From Nostoc sp. T09 (GTDB lineage: Bacteria > Cyanobacteriota > Cyanobacteriia > Cyanobacteriales > Nostocaceae): a DNA stretch of 35,884 bases. The notes beneath the pieces are model-generated. The model saw only the letters and a list, made by a program, of their open reading frames with translations, was not told where the DNA came from and searched no databases. Each line of letters starts with the position of its first letter. Position 1 is the stretch's first letter. This document shows positions 23,840-31,496 of the stretch, one piece after another. Location of the stretch: NCBI RefSeq assembly GCF_002154695.1, contig NZ_MTAV01000042.1, positions 1-35,884 on the forward strand, given 5' to 3'. The position numbers and the translations under genes were made by a program.

Positions 23840-25669
23840 ATGAATTTTAAATACTTCAAACATTGGTTGAAATATACAACAATCCAAAGTGTTGTGGTTT
23901 TGGCTTTTATGTCAATTTCTCATTTATGTACTGCATCTGCTCAGGCTACCTCAGAAGGAGGAATTGACTGGATTGTTGTAGTAGATACTTCTGCTTCAAT
24001 GCGTGGTGTTGGCGGAACAAAAAACATTTTTGATCAAGTCAAGAGTTCCATTACTGAATTTATTAATACAGCCAGATTAGGCGATACCATTACTATTTAT
24101 ACTTTTGATAAAGATGTAACCCTCAATGCTAATGATATCAGTATTGCCAGTAATCCTGACCGAGGTAAACTTAAGCAAATAATTAGCTCACTCCAAGCTA
24201 ATGGTGTGCGTACTCATACAGGTAAAGCAGTGCAAAAGGCTCTGCAACATTCCGCCTTGTTAAACCAACGGGCTGATGCGCTTGGTCGTACTGTCAGCAT
24301 AGTATTTTTGACAGATGGATTAGAGGATGTGCGTGGTATTCCTAATCCAGTTTCTATTCCTAGTAGTACTCAACTTTTAAGTCAGCAACAATGCAAACCA
24401 TATGTCTTCTTTGTATCTTTAGGATTAGAAGAACACGAAAAACAATTGAATGAATTTGCTAACAATCCAGCACTTTGTAATAAAGGACAGGTATTGCGAG
24501 ATCCTGGAGGAGTGCAGCTAAATAGGTTGGCGCAAAATATTCGACCAGTACTGATTAAACCTAAGCTAGATGCCAATTTACCCACTGCTAATTTGCAGCC
24601 AGTATTACCTGGAACAACTACTGAACCGCTAAATATTAATGGCATCAGTAATGTCAACGCCACAGTAAATTTGCAACTGGAAGACCCTAGCCAAAGTGGA
24701 ATTCGCTTAAGTCCACCCCGCCCAATCGACTTAGCTGCTAATAAACCAACAGTGATTCCCGTGCGCTTGCAGATACCAGCAGAGGTTAAGGGAGGTGTTC
24801 ATAGCTTGCGTGTGGTGTTGATGACCGCAGATAAAGCGATCGCCCCCATGACTATTGAATTACCTGTTACCGTTAAGCCAACATTGCAATTTTCAACGGC
24901 GAAGATAGATTTTGGTTCCACAGAAGCAGGTAATAACAGTGAAACCCAAACTTTAGTAGTCAACAGCAATATATCCACAACGGCTAAATTACAACTACAA
25001 GGCGATATCAAAGATATTTCTCTAGCTAAACCTCCAACACCTGTATCCTTGCAAGTCGGGGAAACTCGAATTCCGATGCAGTTGCAGGTGAGCAGTCGCA
25101 GTTCTGAAGGTAAGCGCAACTTTACCTTGGTATTGCAGTCAGATAACTCACTTGCAAGTCCTATTAGTGCTGAAGTTCATCTCAATATTTTGATACCACT
25201 GGGACGCAAAATCATTACTTGGTCGCTATTGGTGCTGCTGCTGTTATTAATTGTTCTGATTGCGTTTTGTTTGATTCAACGCAAAACCCCCTTAGAAATA
25301 ATCGAAGATATCCGCAGCCGCAACTGCTTAGAAGGTGCGCTGGTTATCCTCGAACCACTACCCAAATCTTTGGAAGACGAAGAGATTAGTCTCACACGCC
25401 TGCATAAAAGCAAAGTGTCCTTGAGCGATTTAATACCAGCAATTGCAGACACTAATTCTGATGCTGAGTTAGTCATAGATTGGCGAGCAGGCAAAAAGAA
25501 TATTGAACTACGCTGTTTGAAAGGTGTAATTTTTGTCAATACTAAGAAAATCAATACAGAAGAACTTTACGACGAGGACATAATCGAGATTGGCGATGTG
25601 AAGCTGCAATTTAACTGGATTGAACGCCAAAGACCCTCTGAGCCAAGCAGTGGGCAAACAAACTTTTGA
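23840..25669 (+). CDS. Membrane VWA-domain protein with FHA-like cytoplasmic tail
   Basis: A 609-residue protein. A signal peptide (about 1-35, ending TASAQA) leads to an extracytoplasmic VWA domain (about 42-235) with an intact MIDAS: DTSAS (about 48-52), a Thr in THTG and the Asp in LTDG (about 157-160). Two Ig-like beta domains follow (about 255-450, for example STAKIDFGSTEAGN), then one transmembrane helix (about 457-478). A ~125-residue cytoplasmic domain ends with VNTKKINTEELYDEDIIEIG then VKLQFNW. This last part follows the end of an FHA domain (VNG...L..GD.I.IG...L.F), although the phosphothreonine-binding Arg/Ser residues are not obvious. It heads an operon with the tubulin-like genes and probably transmits an outside signal to them. 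Confidence 0.82.
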   Translation: MNFKYFKHWLKYTTIQSVVVLAFMSISHLCTASAQATSEGGIDWIVVVDTSASMRGVGGTKNIFDQVKSSITEFINTARLGDTITIYTFDKDVTLNANDISIASNPDRGKLKQIISSLQANGVRTHTGKAVQKALQHSALLNQRADALGRTVSIVFLTDGLEDVRGIPNPVSIPSSTQLLSQQQCKPYVFFVSLGLEEHEKQLNEFANNPALCNKGQVLRDPGGVQLNRLAQNIRPVLIKPKLDANLPTANLQPVLPGTTTEPLNINGISNVNATVNLQLEDPSQSGIRLSPPRPIDLAANKPTVIPVRLQIPAEVKGGVHSLRVVLMTADKAIAPMTIELPVTVKPTLQFSTAKIDFGSTEAGNNSETQTLVVNSNISTTAKLQLQGDIKDISLAKPPTPVSLQVGETRIPMQLQVSSRSSEGKRNFTLVLQSDNSLASPISAEVHLNILIPLGRKIITWSLLVLLLLLIVLIAFCLIQRKTPLEIIEDIRSRNCLEGALVILEPLPKSLEDEEISLTRLHKSKVSLSDLIPAIADTNSDAELVIDWRAGKKNIELRCLKGVIFVNTKKINTEELYDEDIIEIGDVKLQFNWIERQRPSEPSSGQTNF

Positions 25670-25689
25670 AAGATGTTACAGGAGAGTGC

Positions 25690-28443
25690 ATGTCTAGTCC
25701 CACGGTTGTACGTCCTACGGTTGTTTTTCGCCCTACCGTTGTCATTGGCTTAGGTGGAACAGGTTATGAAGTTGTACTCAAGCTCAAAAAGCGTTTCATA
25801 GATGTTTACGGCTCAGTACCAGAAATTATTCGTTTTCTTTCTATTGATACTACGGAAAATATCCAAGAACGGGAAAAATCACCTGATGGTACTAAGGTTT
25901 TCTTAGAACCTAATGAACTTTATCCAATTTCAGTAGCAAATCCCGCCGGACTTTTAGGGGGACGTAACGACCATATTGATGAATGGTGGCCTAAGGAAAT
26001 TCCCGCTTATGGCATTATCAATGGTGCAGGACAAATTCGGGCCCGGGGACGACTGGCTTTATTTGCCAAAGTCGGTGATATTAGCAGTCTCATCAGTCAG
26101 GCAATCAATGGTGTACGCGGAATTCGTACTAGTAGGCAAGCATTTTCTGATAACTTTCAAGTTTCCAATCGTGATGGTGTGGAAATTTTTATTATTGGCA
26201 GTTTGGCAGGGGGAACGGGTAGCGGTACATTCTTAGATGTGGCGTTTTTAGCACGGCAATATCTTAATAGTTTTTCCAATATTACAGGGGTATTTGTATT
26301 ACCAAGAGTATTTGCCAATCTCCCCCAAACTCATATGGTAAAGTCCAATGCTTATGGTGCTCTCAAGGAAATAGAATACTTTTGGGGATTAACACCATCT
26401 AATAGTATTGAGATTGATTATGGTATTTCTAAAGTCAAAGCCGATCGCCCTCCCTTTGATGCAGTATTCTTGATTGATGGCATTAACAAGAAGGGAACTG
26501 TAGTTAGCCGTCCTGACGATTTACAAAATTTGGTTGCAGATGGCTTATACATTCAGATTGGTTCTCAAATTGGTCTAGATGCTGCTAACGTTGCTGATAA
26601 CATCCGCGCTTATTTGGCAACGGGTGAGAAAGTCCGAGGACGGAAGATAAATTACTGTAGTTTTGGTTTTGCTACCTTGACTCTACCAGTACAGCAATAC
26701 GAGCGCATGAAACTAGAAGATGCTCAAAAATTGCTGAAACATGAGTTGATGGCAACTACTTCCACAACTGATTTAAACAGTGAAATCGAGCGTTTTTTAC
26801 AAGATTGCAACTTAGTAGAAGCTAGTAATATTTTGAATGCGTTGACTGAAAGCGATCGCGGAGGGCAGGTAAAACCCGAATTCCGAATTGGCGAAATGCG
26901 TTTTGAGCGTACAGCACTACCAACAATCAAAGAACTCTACAAGCGGCAGTTGGATCAAATGGAACAACGAACCGCTAAAGAACTAGCAACAAATTTTTAT
27001 CGCTTAGAACAGACTATAAATACAGCCATTAATACTTGGTGGGAACGAAGCATTAACCGTCCCAATGGTCTAGCTTATGCCCTACAATTTCTCAGCAAAA
27101 TTTATCACCAAATCGATGAATTGCAGCAGAGCGTACAGCGCAAGTCCCAAGAAGCACAATCGAGTTTTAATGCTTTAAAATTAGAACCACAAGAAGAGAA
27201 AATCAAAGAAGCCGCAGAAACTTGGTTTCCCAATAAGAACACTATTCAAGCAGCTTGCCAAAGATACAAAGAACGCGCCGACCAAAAGTGGAAGATTTAT
27301 TTACATTGGAAGCGCTGTGATAAAGCGGCTGAACTGTACGGTTTACTGCGAGCTAGGTTAGAAGAACTTCAGGAAAAATCTCAGCGTCTTCACAGTAACC
27401 TAGATAAAGTTTATCGAGACTTGGAACAGAGTTATAGCGAAGTAAACCGTCACGAAACTAACGACAATCCTTTTATTCACACTATTCAGCGCGTTAATCT
27501 GCAATCGAAACGCCCAAAAGTTACAGGCGAAGACTTCATTCGTTGGTATAGGGAACAGTCGCAAACTTTGACTAATTGGGCAGATAAAAAAGCTGAAAAT
27601 GTGAAGAATGAAATTATCGCATTTATCGATGAAACTTACCATCCCCTCACCAGTATGACTGTTGAGCAGGTATTAGCAGATAGCAATCCTGAAGATGCGG
27701 GAAAAGATTTAGAACAGCTAGGTAAACTCGCAGTTCCTTTGTGGCAATATGAAGAATCAGAAATTCCCACTCAACAACAGCATGTAATTACAGAATTTTA
27801 TTACTACGGAGTTGAGAGTAGCAACACAGTTTTTAGCAGTCCGCCGCTTTCTAGTCGCTTACCTAAAGGCAAAGATAATCCTTCTTTTGTACCCACAGGC
27901 GAAGCTCATAAAGTTACTTTGTTTCGCGTAGAAGTGGGTGTTCCTTTATTTGCCTTCAGTGGCATGAAGGATATGGAATTAGCTTATCTAGATCCAAATA
28001 AAGTCTTCAAGCACTTAGACCGTAATTGGGGAAACTTTGCTAATTTAATTCCCCCAGAAGATGATGGCGGGGCGTTGCGCTGGTTTGCTTTGGCGTTGGC
28101 TCCTGATATGTATAGATTGATTGTAAATCAGCGCAAGCAATACTTTGTGCATACAGACCTAGCGAAAAAATTAGAGGGCGGAGTTTTGCCTTTAGGAGGC
28201 GATCGCAAGTCAGCCTTTAAAGCTTTTAAAACTAACTTGCCTCTAGTTCAGGAAATCGCTGACAAAGTTGAACGCATTACCCACGCAGACCAAGACAAAG
28301 CCAAATTTACTCTCGATGGCTATATCACTCAAATCAATAAATTCTTAAAGGAAGGCAAGGTAGATACCCTAATTAAAGAACAGGTAGAAATGGAAATCCA
28401 GGCAATCGAAGCCTACCTGGAAAATTTAGATGTGATTATGTAG
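25690..28443 (+). CDS. FtsZ/tubulin-like GTPase (FtsZl-1 / Tubulin_2 type)
   Basis: A 917-residue protein starting at ATG 25690, which has GGAG 5 nt upstream; the TTG at 25666 would overlap the VWA gene and is less likely. The N-terminal GTPase domain (about 12-380) has GLGGTG (about 20-25) and the tubulin signature GGTGSG (about 174-179), with FDAVFLIDG and SFGFATLTLP further on. A long alpha-helical, partly coiled-coil region follows (about 390-680), then a mixed C-terminal domain (about 690-917). The layout fits the large FtsZ-like family described by Makarova and Koonin (2010) as associated with VWA genes and proposed to act in membrane remodelling. It should polymerise with GTP at the membrane. 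It lies 20 bp after the VWA gene and 11 bp before the next. Confidence 0.88.
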   Translation: MSSPTVVRPTVVFRPTVVIGLGGTGYEVVLKLKKRFIDVYGSVPEIIRFLSIDTTENIQEREKSPDGTKVFLEPNELYPISVANPAGLLGGRNDHIDEWWPKEIPAYGIINGAGQIRARGRLALFAKVGDISSLISQAINGVRGIRTSRQAFSDNFQVSNRDGVEIFIIGSLAGGTGSGTFLDVAFLARQYLNSFSNITGVFVLPRVFANLPQTHMVKSNAYGALKEIEYFWGLTPSNSIEIDYGISKVKADRPPFDAVFLIDGINKKGTVVSRPDDLQNLVADGLYIQIGSQIGLDAANVADNIRAYLATGEKVRGRKINYCSFGFATLTLPVQQYERMKLEDAQKLLKHELMATTSTTDLNSEIERFLQDCNLVEASNILNALTESDRGGQVKPEFRIGEMRFERTALPTIKELYKRQLDQMEQRTAKELATNFYRLEQTINTAINTWWERSINRPNGLAYALQFLSKIYHQIDELQQSVQRKSQEAQSSFNALKLEPQEEKIKEAAETWFPNKNTIQAACQRYKERADQKWKIYLHWKRCDKAAELYGLLRARLEELQEKSQRLHSNLDKVYRDLEQSYSEVNRHETNDNPFIHTIQRVNLQSKRPKVTGEDFIRWYREQSQTLTNWADKKAENVKNEIIAFIDETYHPLTSMTVEQVLADSNPEDAGKDLEQLGKLAVPLWQYEESEIPTQQQHVITEFYYYGVESSNTVFSSPPLSSRLPKGKDNPSFVPTGEAHKVTLFRVEVGVPLFAFSGMKDMELAYLDPNKVFKHLDRNWGNFANLIPPEDDGGALRWFALALAPDMYRLIVNQRKQYFVHTDLAKKLEGGVLPLGGDRKSAFKAFKTNLPLVQEIADKVERITHADQDKAKFTLDGYITQINKFLKEGKVDTLIKEQVEMEIQAIEAYLENLDVIM

Positions 28444-28454
28444 AGATTAGCCTC

Positions 28455-31400
28455 ATGCCAAAACCAACTATTCTAATTGCACTCGATCCTCACAGTGCTG
28501 CTTTTTGTGCAGCCATTAAACGCCAACTGCAAGAATTACCTGCTGTCCAAAGTCGTTTAATTCAAACTTATGCTTTCACTTGGGACAACCAAGCTTTTAG
28601 TTTCAGTGCTGAGTTAGATCGGTTTGCTGACGCGAGTTTTGACCTGGCTCAAATCAATAGCGGGAAAACTTCTGTCTCGCAAATCCGCACCCAATTTACT
28701 CAAGCTGCTAGCCAGCTGCAAACTGAACTGATCGATTTACTCAAAACCCTGAATCAATCACAAGAAGCGATCGCAGCTAAACGTGAGGGACTGGAAATCA
28801 GCAACAGCCATCGAGTTTATCTCATGCTGTCAGCCAGCAATCATTTTGCTCAAGGTGTAGTTTTTGAGCTAGTACGTTTGATGCGCTGGCTATTTACTAA
28901 GTACTTCACAGATATTCCCCACAACTTAGAAGCTTTATTGCTATTGCCAGGGTTATTTACTCAAGCTACAACTGCTGATTACAGTGCTGCCTATACGCTC
29001 CTCAAAGAGCTAGATTACAAAATGACTAGTGGTGTTGTAATTACAGGTAGCCAAAAAGTACCGCCTTTTGATAACTGCTGGCTAATCGATGAGCGAATTG
29101 GCGGATTGAAAGACAATTTGCCCAGTTATGCTGATGCTTTTGCAGGCTTTCTCACTGTAGAACCGGAAACTAGCGGCTTGTTGATTGGTACACACAAAGT
29201 CCGGGGAAAAATTCCTGCTTACAGTGCTTTTGGCTATGGTGAATTGTTTTTTCCAGGAGAAACAGTTATCAATCGTTTGAGTGCTGCTTTAGCTGCCGAT
29301 ATCGTCATGGGGCAGTTTTTACTAAAGGCAGAATTTACTCCAGAGGCAAATCGCAAGTGGCTATTAGATGCCAAAGATTTTGTCTTGAGTGATGAGTTTA
29401 GCAATGCCTTTTTGCAATTAGAACGAGACAACGGTAAACCAGTGTGGCAAGATTTTAATCCCCGCATTGATATCCGTACTGGCATGGCTAAGGAATATGG
29501 CATGGAATTGCAGCGTGCTTATCGGCAATTTGAAAATAAAGAACTCCTTTCCTATAAGCGCACCCTAGAAAATTCTGGCAAACAAGCTCAGACAACCTTA
29601 GTCAATTTTTTAGATCACAGCATTAATCGCTATGCTGATGCTACACCTAAAGGCTTACATGAAGCAGTTAGGATATTAAATATATTGACTTATTTATATT
29701 TAGAACTGCAAACCGATTCGATTAGCGATCAGCCAGAAAATCTCTTTACACAGTTGCGGGCTGCTGAAGCATTTCTGGATTCCAAATTGCAGGTAACAAT
29801 TGACAAAGAAACTAGCAAAAAGCTGCTCAACCAAGTTTTATCTTTAAAATTGCAGCGGCAACAATTACAAGATGTTTCACCTGAAGGAAGTTTGGAATTA
29901 CAGAAAATTCAAGAACAACTAGAAACAGTGATCGCTGATTATCGACAAGCGTTAAATGCTGAAATCGAACATGCTCGACAAATCCGCGTAATGGCGATCG
30001 CTCAGGCTCGTGAAAAAGCATCGGCTGCAATTGATGCATCACAAAAACACCTCAATGCCATTGAAAATCAACTGGAAAGCAGCACTGATAAATTAAATGA
30101 ACTGCTAGCAGAAGAAAGCCGTTTTCGTACTCAGTATTTAGTTGTTTTTCCTATCCTTGTAGCTGTGGCTCTTCTCGCTTTGTTGATTCTTACAGGAATT
30201 TTCAGTCAATCAACACTGTGGATATTCTTGCAACATATTTGGGGTAACTTAGTTAATCATCTGCTGGGAACGGCGGTAACAATTTTGACATATTTAGGCA
30301 TCATTTGGCTCAAGTACAGCACTGATATACGCGATCACATTCAAAAGGTACAAAAGCAAATTCAACGGCTAGAAAACAGTTTAAAAGCAACTGCTGTAGA
30401 ATTACGCCGTAACTATAACGAGCAATTAAAGCTAGAATACGACCTCTACGCCCAAAATCTCCGCGTTGAAGCGTTGAATTATCTAATTAAAATAGCTAAA
30501 CAAAGAACTGATACTTTACGTACAACTCTCTCCAACTTTTCTCAGTTATATGATGATTTGCAGGCGCAACGTCAAAAAGCAACAACGTGCTTTTCGGAAA
30601 TTCGGCTCTCAGTTTTAACTGATGCTGATATTGATATTTATTACGACAGTTTTCTGGCAACACTACCAAAAGAAAAATTCACTCAGGAACAGGTAAAGCG
30701 TTCTCAGTCATGGCAGATGACTGCGGTAGAATTTCAGAATCTACTGATTTCATTTGCGCGTCAGCAGTTTGAGCATTTGAGTAATTTGTCTATTGGAGAA
30801 GCATTAAAACAATCAGATTTAATAGCGGATCACAGTGCTAGCCTGCGCTTAAATCAGCTTTATGATAACGCTAAACTCTTGCTCAGAATTCAAGATATTG
30901 ATGCTAATTTAAACCCGACTTCTCAACAAGAGCTTACTCTCTGGGTGGGAACTAAAGATAAAGAAGAAATGTTTGGGCTTTACAGCCGTTTTAGTCGCAC
31001 TTTAACGGCTTTATTAGGGGAAGATGAGCAACGTTTGTGTATTTTGACTCGTTCATTAGGTTTTCCCGCTTATTTTCTCAGTCAAGTTGAATTTTACCGA
31101 GACTGCTATGAGCGTACTCAGAGCGAACATACAAAGCAAGAGGAAAATATTCCCGATTTAATTCCAGAGGAAATTGGCTCAAGTAAGGAATTGAAGCTAG
31201 CTTATCAAACCCTGCTTTTAGCGATCGCTCTAGGATTATCATCTCAAAATTCTCAAGGTAATTATCAGTTCAAAGGCCAGTCACTTGGTAAAGATAGAGA
31301 ACAAATCGCCTCAGCTTTAGCAACTGAGTTCACTTTTCAAGAACTCTATGAAGAACTACAACAACGTATTGAAACATTTGAACATGATTTGATGTATCAG

Positions 31401-31496
31401 AAATTACAAGAAGTTGAAAAAACTGCTCAAGATTTAACTCATTACGAACGCAAACTTTTAGATCAGCTACTTTCAGACTATAATCCTTTAAATTAG
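28455..31496 (+). CDS. Membrane coiled-coil protein with a degenerate tubulin-like domain
   Basis: A 1013-residue partner of the tubulin-like GTPase. Its first ~300 residues align by eye with that neighbour: PTILIALDPHS against PTVVIGLGGTG, LMLSASNHFAQG against IIGSLAGGTGSG, PPFDNCWLIDE against PPFDAVFLIDG, and KVRGKIPAYSAFGYGEL against KVRGRKINYCSFGFATL. Both glycine nucleotide motifs are lost (ALDPHS, ASNHFAQG), so it should not bind GTP normally. A helical region (about 350-555, coiled coil) precedes two transmembrane helices (about 560-582 and 600-621), a second coiled coil (about 625-715) and a long helical C-terminus. It probably anchors or caps filaments of the partner at the membrane. 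Pseudo-tubulin is my reading, not a database result. Confidence 0.8.
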   Translation: MPKPTILIALDPHSAAFCAAIKRQLQELPAVQSRLIQTYAFTWDNQAFSFSAELDRFADASFDLAQINSGKTSVSQIRTQFTQAASQLQTELIDLLKTLNQSQEAIAAKREGLEISNSHRVYLMLSASNHFAQGVVFELVRLMRWLFTKYFTDIPHNLEALLLLPGLFTQATTADYSAAYTLLKELDYKMTSGVVITGSQKVPPFDNCWLIDERIGGLKDNLPSYADAFAGFLTVEPETSGLLIGTHKVRGKIPAYSAFGYGELFFPGETVINRLSAALAADIVMGQFLLKAEFTPEANRKWLLDAKDFVLSDEFSNAFLQLERDNGKPVWQDFNPRIDIRTGMAKEYGMELQRAYRQFENKELLSYKRTLENSGKQAQTTLVNFLDHSINRYADATPKGLHEAVRILNILTYLYLELQTDSISDQPENLFTQLRAAEAFLDSKLQVTIDKETSKKLLNQVLSLKLQRQQLQDVSPEGSLELQKIQEQLETVIADYRQALNAEIEHARQIRVMAIAQAREKASAAIDASQKHLNAIENQLESSTDKLNELLAEESRFRTQYLVVFPILVAVALLALLILTGIFSQSTLWIFLQHIWGNLVNHLLGTAVTILTYLGIIWLKYSTDIRDHIQKVQKQIQRLENSLKATAVELRRNYNEQLKLEYDLYAQNLRVEALNYLIKIAKQRTDTLRTTLSNFSQLYDDLQAQRQKATTCFSEIRLSVLTDADIDIYYDSFLATLPKEKFTQEQVKRSQSWQMTAVEFQNLLISFARQQFEHLSNLSIGEALKQSDLIADHSASLRLNQLYDNAKLLLRIQDIDANLNPTSQQELTLWVGTKDKEEMFGLYSRFSRTLTALLGEDEQRLCILTRSLGFPAYFLSQVEFYRDCYERTQSEHTKQEENIPDLIPEEIGSSKELKLAYQTLLLAIALGLSSQNSQGNYQFKGQSLGKDREQIASALATEFTFQELYEELQQRIETFEHDLMYQKLQEVEKTAQDLTHYERKLLDQLLSDYNPLN

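Follow-up and report, generated by a model that had tools for sequence, protein, structure and literature searches.

A membrane protein encoded beside a cyanobacterial FtsZl1 GTPase is a predicted tubulin-fold paralogue without GTP-site motifs

Homology of PT to the FtsZl1 GTPase

The window analyzed here, the whole 35,884-nucleotide stretch of contig NZ_MTAV01000042.1 from Nostoc sp. T09, carries a cassette of three genes on the + strand, which encode in this order a vWA protein, an FtsZl1/Tubulin_2 GTPase, and a 1013-residue membrane protein (28455..31496), which we term pseudo-tubulin (PT). Profile comparisons confirm that PT is a paralogue of this GTPase, diverged but homologous over its full length. 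Its N-terminal domain is predicted to adopt a tubulin fold, and both glycine motifs of the GTP site are lost.

The PT family comprises 21 sequences including that of the window, to which the other members are 56–83% identical. Twenty of 23 loci entered the PT alignments, with L067, L072, and L073 excluded as partial or decayed. For the GTPases, 20 members of the window subfamily (without L054 and L066, whose frames are cut, and without L067 and L073, which hold no GTPase within the retrieved stretch) and 19 full-length proteins of the common cyanobacterial types, taken from 20 loci, were used. In a BLASTP search of the window PT against the open reading frames of 20 cyanobacterial FtsZl1 loci, all matches with E < 0.05 are FtsZl1 orthologues. 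They form two colinear regions, within PT residues 41–440 and 643–976, with a best E of 6.8e-6.

Using hhalign, PT matches the combined FtsZl1 alignment over residues 72–983 (probability 99.3, E 1.5e-20) and the common-type FtsZl1 proteins alone (98.2, E 5.1e-14), whereas the match to the neighboring GTPase subfamily alone is weaker (82.7, E 9.4e-6). Domain by domain, the N-terminal domains match each other with E 2.5e-10 and a score of 77.7. In 200 column shuffles, the score never exceeded 37.2, less than half as high. The C-terminal parts (PT ~672–978, 30468..31388 on the + strand, corresponding to the FtsZl1 helical domain) match with E 1.6e-14 and a score of 111.4, compared with a shuffle maximum of 27.1. 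The remaining seven pairings of PT and FtsZl1 parts yield nothing (best E 0.078), and reversed profiles reach E 0.16 (N-terminal) and 0.03 (C-terminal). As the best N-domain shuffle was itself assigned E 2.6e-4, the hhalign E-values are optimistic and the comparison of scores is safer. Addition of one divergent sequence on each side, from G734, a genome from another order whose PT row is the longer of two pieces only, gives E 3e-11 for the N-terminal domain, 6.3e-17 for the C-terminal domain, and 4.6e-23 (probability 99.5) for the full length.

The first-pass annotation of this DNA had described PT as colinear with the GTPase over ~300 residues, with four matched blocks. These blocks lie where they had been placed, at PT residues 4–14, 127–134, 203–212, and 248–264 and GTPase residues 23–33, 181–187, 262–271, and 322–338 (925-residue numbering). 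In an unguided joint MAFFT alignment of 73 rows, the four N-terminal blocks and two C-terminal blocks fall into register. Thus, homology and block order hold, but the limit of ~300 residues was too short, since the C-terminal domain is homologous as well. Like FtsZl1, PT continues into a coiled coil and then a mostly helical C-terminal domain (E 6.3e-17; helices in a low-confidence model). We therefore reject the alternative that a tubulin domain became fused to some unrelated coiled coil.

A rival view would take PT for an unrelated coiled-coil membrane protein whose four blocks are due to chance or composition. It could point to the marginal pairwise BLASTP result between the two window proteins (22% identity, E 0.002) and to Pfam, where the window PT has no tubulin-family match at E ≤ 1 (the sole match, E 0.35, is meaningless) and does not reach the gathering score of PF13809. 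We reject this view as highly improbable in the face of the profile scores, the shuffles, and the blind fold search described below. Moreover, PF13809 directly matches PT in one of 26 genomes (G431, 19.9 bits, E 5.7e-4), although under the family cut-off of 27. Together, profiles, shuffles, and fold search support a common ancestry of the N-terminal domains of PT and FtsZl1. A search of the PDB by sequence with the PT and FtsZl1 families found nothing below E 0.08.

Predicted tubulin fold of the N-terminal domain

The structural model of full-length PT is poor (mean pLDDT 65), with long helices at residues 480–582 and 599–708 predicted at low confidence. We therefore rely on a model of residues 1–320 (28455..29414, + strand), which was built from PT rows only. 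Since no GTPase row entered this model, its fold is independent of the sequence argument. It has a pTM of 0.71; residues 1–235 mostly show pLDDT values of 80–93, while residues 237–289 are mostly below 50. In a Foldseek search against the PDB, tubulin-superfamily entries make up 47 of the best 50 of 915 matches (E ≤ 10), all of them TubZ, tubulin, gamma-tubulin, CetZ, or microtubule entries (where a microtubule entry contains several proteins, the chain was identified from title and length). Among the matches listed, five have E ≤ 0.001, all of them TubZ (best E 4.6e-4, probability 1.00). The query TM-scores of the 47 tubulin-type matches are low (0.30–0.45), consistent with the poorly resolved stretch 237–289. 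The model thus assigns the N-terminal region of PT to the tubulin superfamily, as the first-pass annotation had predicted. Neither of the outcomes that this annotation named as refuting its reading, a model lacking the tubulin fold or profiles that place PT in another family, was obtained.

Loss of the GTP motifs under purifying selection

In FtsZl1 proteins, the GxGGTG motif of the T1 loop and the GGTGSG motif of the T4 loop are intact in all 43 rows, including the window GTPase. Further, what we take to be the T2 aspartate and the T3 motif GAxxxRxxGR, named by analogy with FtsZ anatomy, are kept in 43 of 43; this stretch is not aligned with PT. In PT, the T1 equivalent reads PTILIALDPHS (28464..28496, + strand), with ALDPHS in place of GLGGTG, and A-(L/V)-D-P is found in 22 of 22 PTs. 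The T4 equivalent ASNHFAQG (28833..28856, + strand) has lost AGGTGSG and is a variable loop among PTs, with GGTGSG in none of the 22. Hence, the claim that both glycine motifs are destroyed applies to every aligned orthologue.

The scaffold blocks are kept, in register with the GTPase in the joint alignment. The block PPFDNCWLID (29061..29090, + strand) corresponds to PPFDAVFLID, and its residues F205, D206, C208, W209, L210, and D212 are invariant among 21 PTs. The second block, KVRGKIPAYSAFGYGEL (29196..29246, + strand), corresponds to KVRGRKINYCSFGFATL of the GTPase and falls inside the poorly resolved stretch of the model. That D-P is invariant in PT suggests a retained function for what was once the T1 loop.

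PT is under purifying selection. With our own Nei–Gojobori script, dN/dS in four pairs is 0.14–0.17 for the whole protein and 0.09–0.24 over residues 1–300; the GTPase yields 0.05–0.13 in the same pairs. Given the whole-protein values and 27 full-length frames, a dead copy drifting as a pseudogene is ruled out.

Predicted membrane hairpin

PT is predicted to insert into the membrane via a transmembrane hairpin of residues 562–580 and 599–617 (30138..30305, + strand), located between the two long helices. At a Kyte–Doolittle cut-off of 1.6, the first segment passes in 22 of 22 PTs and a separate second segment in 20 of 22, whereas none of the 20 cassette GTPases exceeds the cut-off (maximum 1.34). 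This agrees with the earlier proposal that PT is the membrane-anchored member of the pair. As the two hydrophobic segments form a hairpin, both ends of PT would lie on one side of the membrane, presumably in the cytosol.

Linkage, distribution, and decay of the cassette

Across 21 loci (the window and 20 others), no gene families besides vWA, GTPase, and PT are shared by every locus, and the flanks vary. Among 217 genomes of the window's GTDB family, PT is matched in 41 and full length in 27; 13 of the 41 hold decayed or partial copies only, and one copy is cut by a contig end. By coordinates, full-length PT adjoins the GTPase in all 27 cases. Conversely, the long window-type GTPase (> 1700 bits; next best place 436) occurs in 28 of the 217 genomes and adjoins full-length PT in 27. 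In the exception, G435, PT matches in two pieces only, residues 1–242 and 712–1018. At the corresponding place in Calothrix sp. PCC 7716 (L072 10001–11634), the two pieces are residues 1–236 and 707–1013; the middle of PT is missing, and the GTPase beside it is full length.

In a set of 26 genomes (25 of the 27 with full-length PT plus G734, the window genome being searched separately and G453 excluded for 38% contamination), the GTPase adjoins PT in all 26, with frames of at least 900 residues in 23 and shorter ones in three. In G453, it adjoins PT too. Short or cut GTPase frames beside full-length PT lie at L054 7222–9639, L066 7195–9498, and G457 C1:1451226–1453679 and may reflect either real decay or assembly error.

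Beyond the family, a four-row PT profile matched 16 of the 388 genomes scanned within the order, 14 of them in the window's family. The other two (G377 and G289) are weak, cover coil and hairpin only, and were not counted as PT. Across the phylum, six of 339 genomes match, five from the window's family and one, G734, from another order, which holds the vWA–GTPase–PT trio. A search of the plasmid collection for PT gave no match at E 0.01.

The PT gene of G734 is split over two contigs (L122 16654–16936; L123 1–1897). It stops close to the end of one, and its last part is found on the other beside an apparent TnpB gene, which would fit interruption by an insertion element. Remnant cassettes with stops in GTPase and PT fragments are found at L005 1456–1692 (G020 C1:1179568–1182428) and in G531 (C104 and C166). 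In G020, a GTPase piece reads in frame into the last ~60 residues of PT. Such remnants suggest that the genes of the cassette degrade together.

Origin of the PT/GTPase split

The PT profile scores its neighboring GTPase with 24.3 bits, compared with 34.0 and 32.3 bits for the best cyanobacterial FtsZl1 proteins of the MotA type. In a tree of 73 rows, all PT sequences group together (100/100). The cassette GTPases cluster with GTPases of Thermaceae plasmids (100/95), and PT falls outside that group. A clade of PT and cassette GTPases alone is rejected (p-AU 0.019), whereas a clade of PT and MotA-type FtsZl1 proteins is not (p 0.216). A recent duplication of the neighboring GTPase gene is thus not supported by profile scores, tree, or AU test. 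Taken at face value, the split would predate the cyanobacterial/Thermaceae divergence of these GTPases; the PT branch is long, its placement unsupported (90/17), the T4 columns are included, and the program warns of meeting long branches. We read PT as an ancient paralogue, as the first-pass annotation had proposed, whose duplication shows no sign of being recent within the operon.

Possible roles of PT beside the GTPase

From the motifs and the gene neighborhood, we infer that PT is probably GTP-free and may be a partner in a filament. We consider it about evenly balanced whether PT serves as an immobile subunit, devoid of nucleotide, in an assembly of two parts; of its possible roles, that of a membrane tether or cap seems most likely. 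PT would be embedded in the inner membrane, its two globular ends facing the cytosol, and present a tubulin-like surface, together with a matching coiled coil and C-terminal domain, to the soluble GTPase. By binding and anchoring the GTPase, it could nucleate, cap, or tether its polymers at the membrane. Since its own nucleotide face appears ruined, PT would be restricted to the end of a filament of the tubulin type. This would favor a cap or tether over an alternating lattice of the alpha/beta type. The vWA protein may read an outside signal and couple it to the GTPase/PT assembly. This proposal is supported by the homology over both domains, the fold of the PT-only model, the lost motifs, purifying selection, the hairpin, the linkage, and the trio in G734.

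Several observations weigh against this proposal. Foldseek with the full-length model returned no tubulin among the 50 matches listed, which were largely long-helix proteins; for this reason the domain-only model was needed. Two of the 19 common-type FtsZl1 proteins narrowly exceed the hydropathy cut-off (1.64 and 1.77). In 3 of 26 genomes (G379, G431, and G457), the GTPase frame is shortened beside full-length PT, so that PT can persist for some time without an intact GTPase. Moreover, the cassette is dispensable, since the 13 of 41 PT-bearing genomes described above keep only decayed or partial copies, with a 14th cut by a contig end. The open-licence literature searched does not report polymerization of FtsZl1, and excerpts of PMC2875224 describe its T6-H7 elements as not identifiable. 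Finally, the C-terminal domains might account for all of the interaction, in which case the tubulin domain would be a relic.

The main rival, an analogy to ARC3 of chloroplast division, would make PT an inhibitor or disassembly factor whose dead tubulin domain blocks the filament end until a membrane or vWA signal releases it. The GTP motifs of ARC3 are degenerate, and its parts list equals that of PT: an FtsZ-derived domain and an unrelated regulatory or anchoring region. According to excerpts of PMC5855766, ARC3 is an FtsZ-derived protein which regulates active FtsZ; it interacts with FtsZ1 as well as FtsZ2 and inhibits assembly of the Z ring. Unlike PT, it is a stromal protein of plants, has a MORN domain, and targets the FtsZ of division rather than FtsZl1. 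An inhibitor fits every sequence result of this analysis, but the 1:1 linkage is equally compatible with a structural subunit and with a regulator, and we regard this role as possible, if rather doubtful.

Alternatively, PT and the GTPase may form a stoichiometric heterodimer and a polymer of alternating active and inactive subunits, as in alpha/beta tubulin or BtubA/BtubB, which are likewise paired paralogues of tubulin fold. The common fold, the full-length colinearity, and the adjoining genes would agree with this. However, both subunits of alpha/beta tubulin and of BtubA/BtubB bind nucleotide, and intact GTP-site motifs in both partners are not what we find here: PT has lost T1 and T4, its alignment does not include the T2/T3 stretch, and it is a membrane protein. 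A transmembrane subunit at alternate positions is also hard to square with a free cytosolic filament. We thus consider a heterodimeric lattice distinctly improbable. In our favored arrangement of a tethered or capped polymer, the dedicated dead partner suggests where the GTPase works, namely at the inner membrane, and which surface may matter. The pair, which occurs in some filamentous cyanobacteria, also bears on the origin of heteromeric tubulin systems.

Relation to known systems

Pseudo-enzymes that regulate live relatives are well known for kinases. The window GTPase, with its adjoining vWA gene, is a member of the FtsZl1 family, and PT shares with this family the N-terminal tubulin domain, the coiled coil, and the C-terminal helical domain but lacks the GTP motifs and carries a transmembrane hairpin. 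Makarova and Koonin (2010), in the excerpts of PMC2875224, describe FtsZl1 with vWA, kinase, GTPase, and OmpA neighbors, predict a role in membrane remodeling, and note FtsZ paralogues lacking motifs, especially in archaea; an inactive FtsZl1 paralogue or partner is not mentioned there. Tubulin_2 is handled as a divergent group in excerpts of PMC9871819. In the open-licence literature, we found no experiment on FtsZl1 and no conserved membrane-anchored pseudo-tubulin tied 1:1 to a live bacterial tubulin relative.

In 20 other cyanobacterial FtsZl1 loci, a vWA-like gene precedes and a MotA-like gene follows FtsZl1 in 12; 11 hold an OmpA-like gene and six a different upstream gene pair (names given by eye and by comparison with an annotated Deinococcus operon). 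PT thus occupies the place of the MotA-like gene of those 12 loci, which is mostly followed by the OmpA-like gene. The MotA-like gene was dropped as a relative of PT, its single BLASTP match having E 0.073.

Among GTPase-centered systems with GAP1-N2, Firmicutes operons hold two tubulin/coiled-coil genes and vWA genes and are regarded as conflict systems, according to excerpts of Kaur et al. (2020) (PMC7159879). They differ from the three-gene cassette of the window by extra GAP1 GTPases and FNIII proteins, and the excerpts do not state that one of the tubulins is inactive.

Thermaceae plasmids and a possible link to defense

In the plasmid collection, the nearest GTPases lie on Thermaceae plasmids. 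Three of these carry a module of vWA, FtsZl1, a protein of 677 to 686 residues, and brxL (L128 8288–16365, L129 8357–17449, and L130 8386–16345). A fourth (L134 10001–13685) holds only the third gene and BrxL, behind an apparent GTPase remnant. Helicases or nucleases occur near these modules, methylases in two of three, and CRISPR genes in L134; neighbors in L128 match HmaB and HmaC.

Across the four plasmids, the third protein measures 677–689 residues. It resembles PT in its operon position and its first residues (HPTLL or HPTVL) but has no transmembrane segment in four of four. Eight local or global hhalign comparisons with PT or FtsZl1 were each set against 100 shuffles, of which 7 to 66 scored at least as high as the real profiles, and the best match to its own neighboring GTPase (E 0.003, probability 10) lies in coil. 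Profile similarity is not significant in these comparisons, and the gene is at most a candidate homologue of PT; a Thermaceae counterpart of PT is possible. If the third protein were a further degraded PT, the two-tubulin design would be old and tied to defense. A general prokaryotic design, in which a live FtsZl1 GTPase and a dead membrane- or complex-bound tubulin split before the cyanobacterial and Thermaceae cassettes arose, the Thermaceae third gene is the same dead tubulin further worn, and the pair acts as a cytoskeletal defense switch, appears unlikely to us.

The cyanobacterial cassette itself could be an anti-invader module with the GTPase/PT/vWA complex as sensor or switch. The Thermaceae modules near defense genes speak for such a role, as do the patchy presence and frequent decay of the cassette and the proposal, in excerpts of PMC7159879, that operons of tubulin plus vWA are conflict systems. 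Against this, PADLOC 2.0 contains no family that matches the window vWA, GTPase, or PT at E ≤ 1, and BrxL is no part of the cyanobacterial cassette, as only three genes are common to the 21 loci. In addition, the 11 other recurrent flanking families listed (3 to 7 loci each) include none that is defense-like by eye, the flanks of the loci not having been scanned against PADLOC. We therefore give a defense role little credence. The open-licence literature search and excerpts of the BREX paper PMC12839542 do not mention FtsZl1 together with BrxL, and the word "tubulin" is absent from the main text of that paper.

Further features of the cassette and related loci

The first gene of the cassette (23840..25669, + strand) encodes the vWA protein of 609 residues (Pfam VWA_2 1.1e-13, VWA 1.2e-10), a homologue of which is present in 21 of 21 loci compared. 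Its hydropathy indicates a single transmembrane stretch at about residues 461–488, followed by a tail. The GTPase gene (25690..28443, + strand) encodes 917 residues from the ATG at 25690. PF13809 matches residues 25–347 of the 925-residue frame with E 7.8e-63 and 213.3 bits, well over the gathering cut-off of 27. The longest GTPase reading frame opens with a TTG at 25666 and overlaps the vWA stop (window 25666–25690). The true start is probably the ATG at 25690, eight residues downstream, because 17 of 21 orthologous frames allow no start upstream of an ATG that lies at this position or only a few codons from it. The GTPase and PT genes are separated by 11 bp, and the closest PTs in named records belong to cyanobacteria such as Tolypothrix, Nostoc, and Calothrix.

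A second, distinct tubulin-like gene (503 residues, glycine motifs kept by eye) lies beside an actin/HSP70-like gene of 1089 residues in a Nostocaceae-type genome (L127 4668–9459, − strand). Weak PF13809 matches occur at L127 and at G375 C432 8695–9357 (L099). The pair at L127 resembles the tubulin plus HSP70 systems described in excerpts of PMC7159879.

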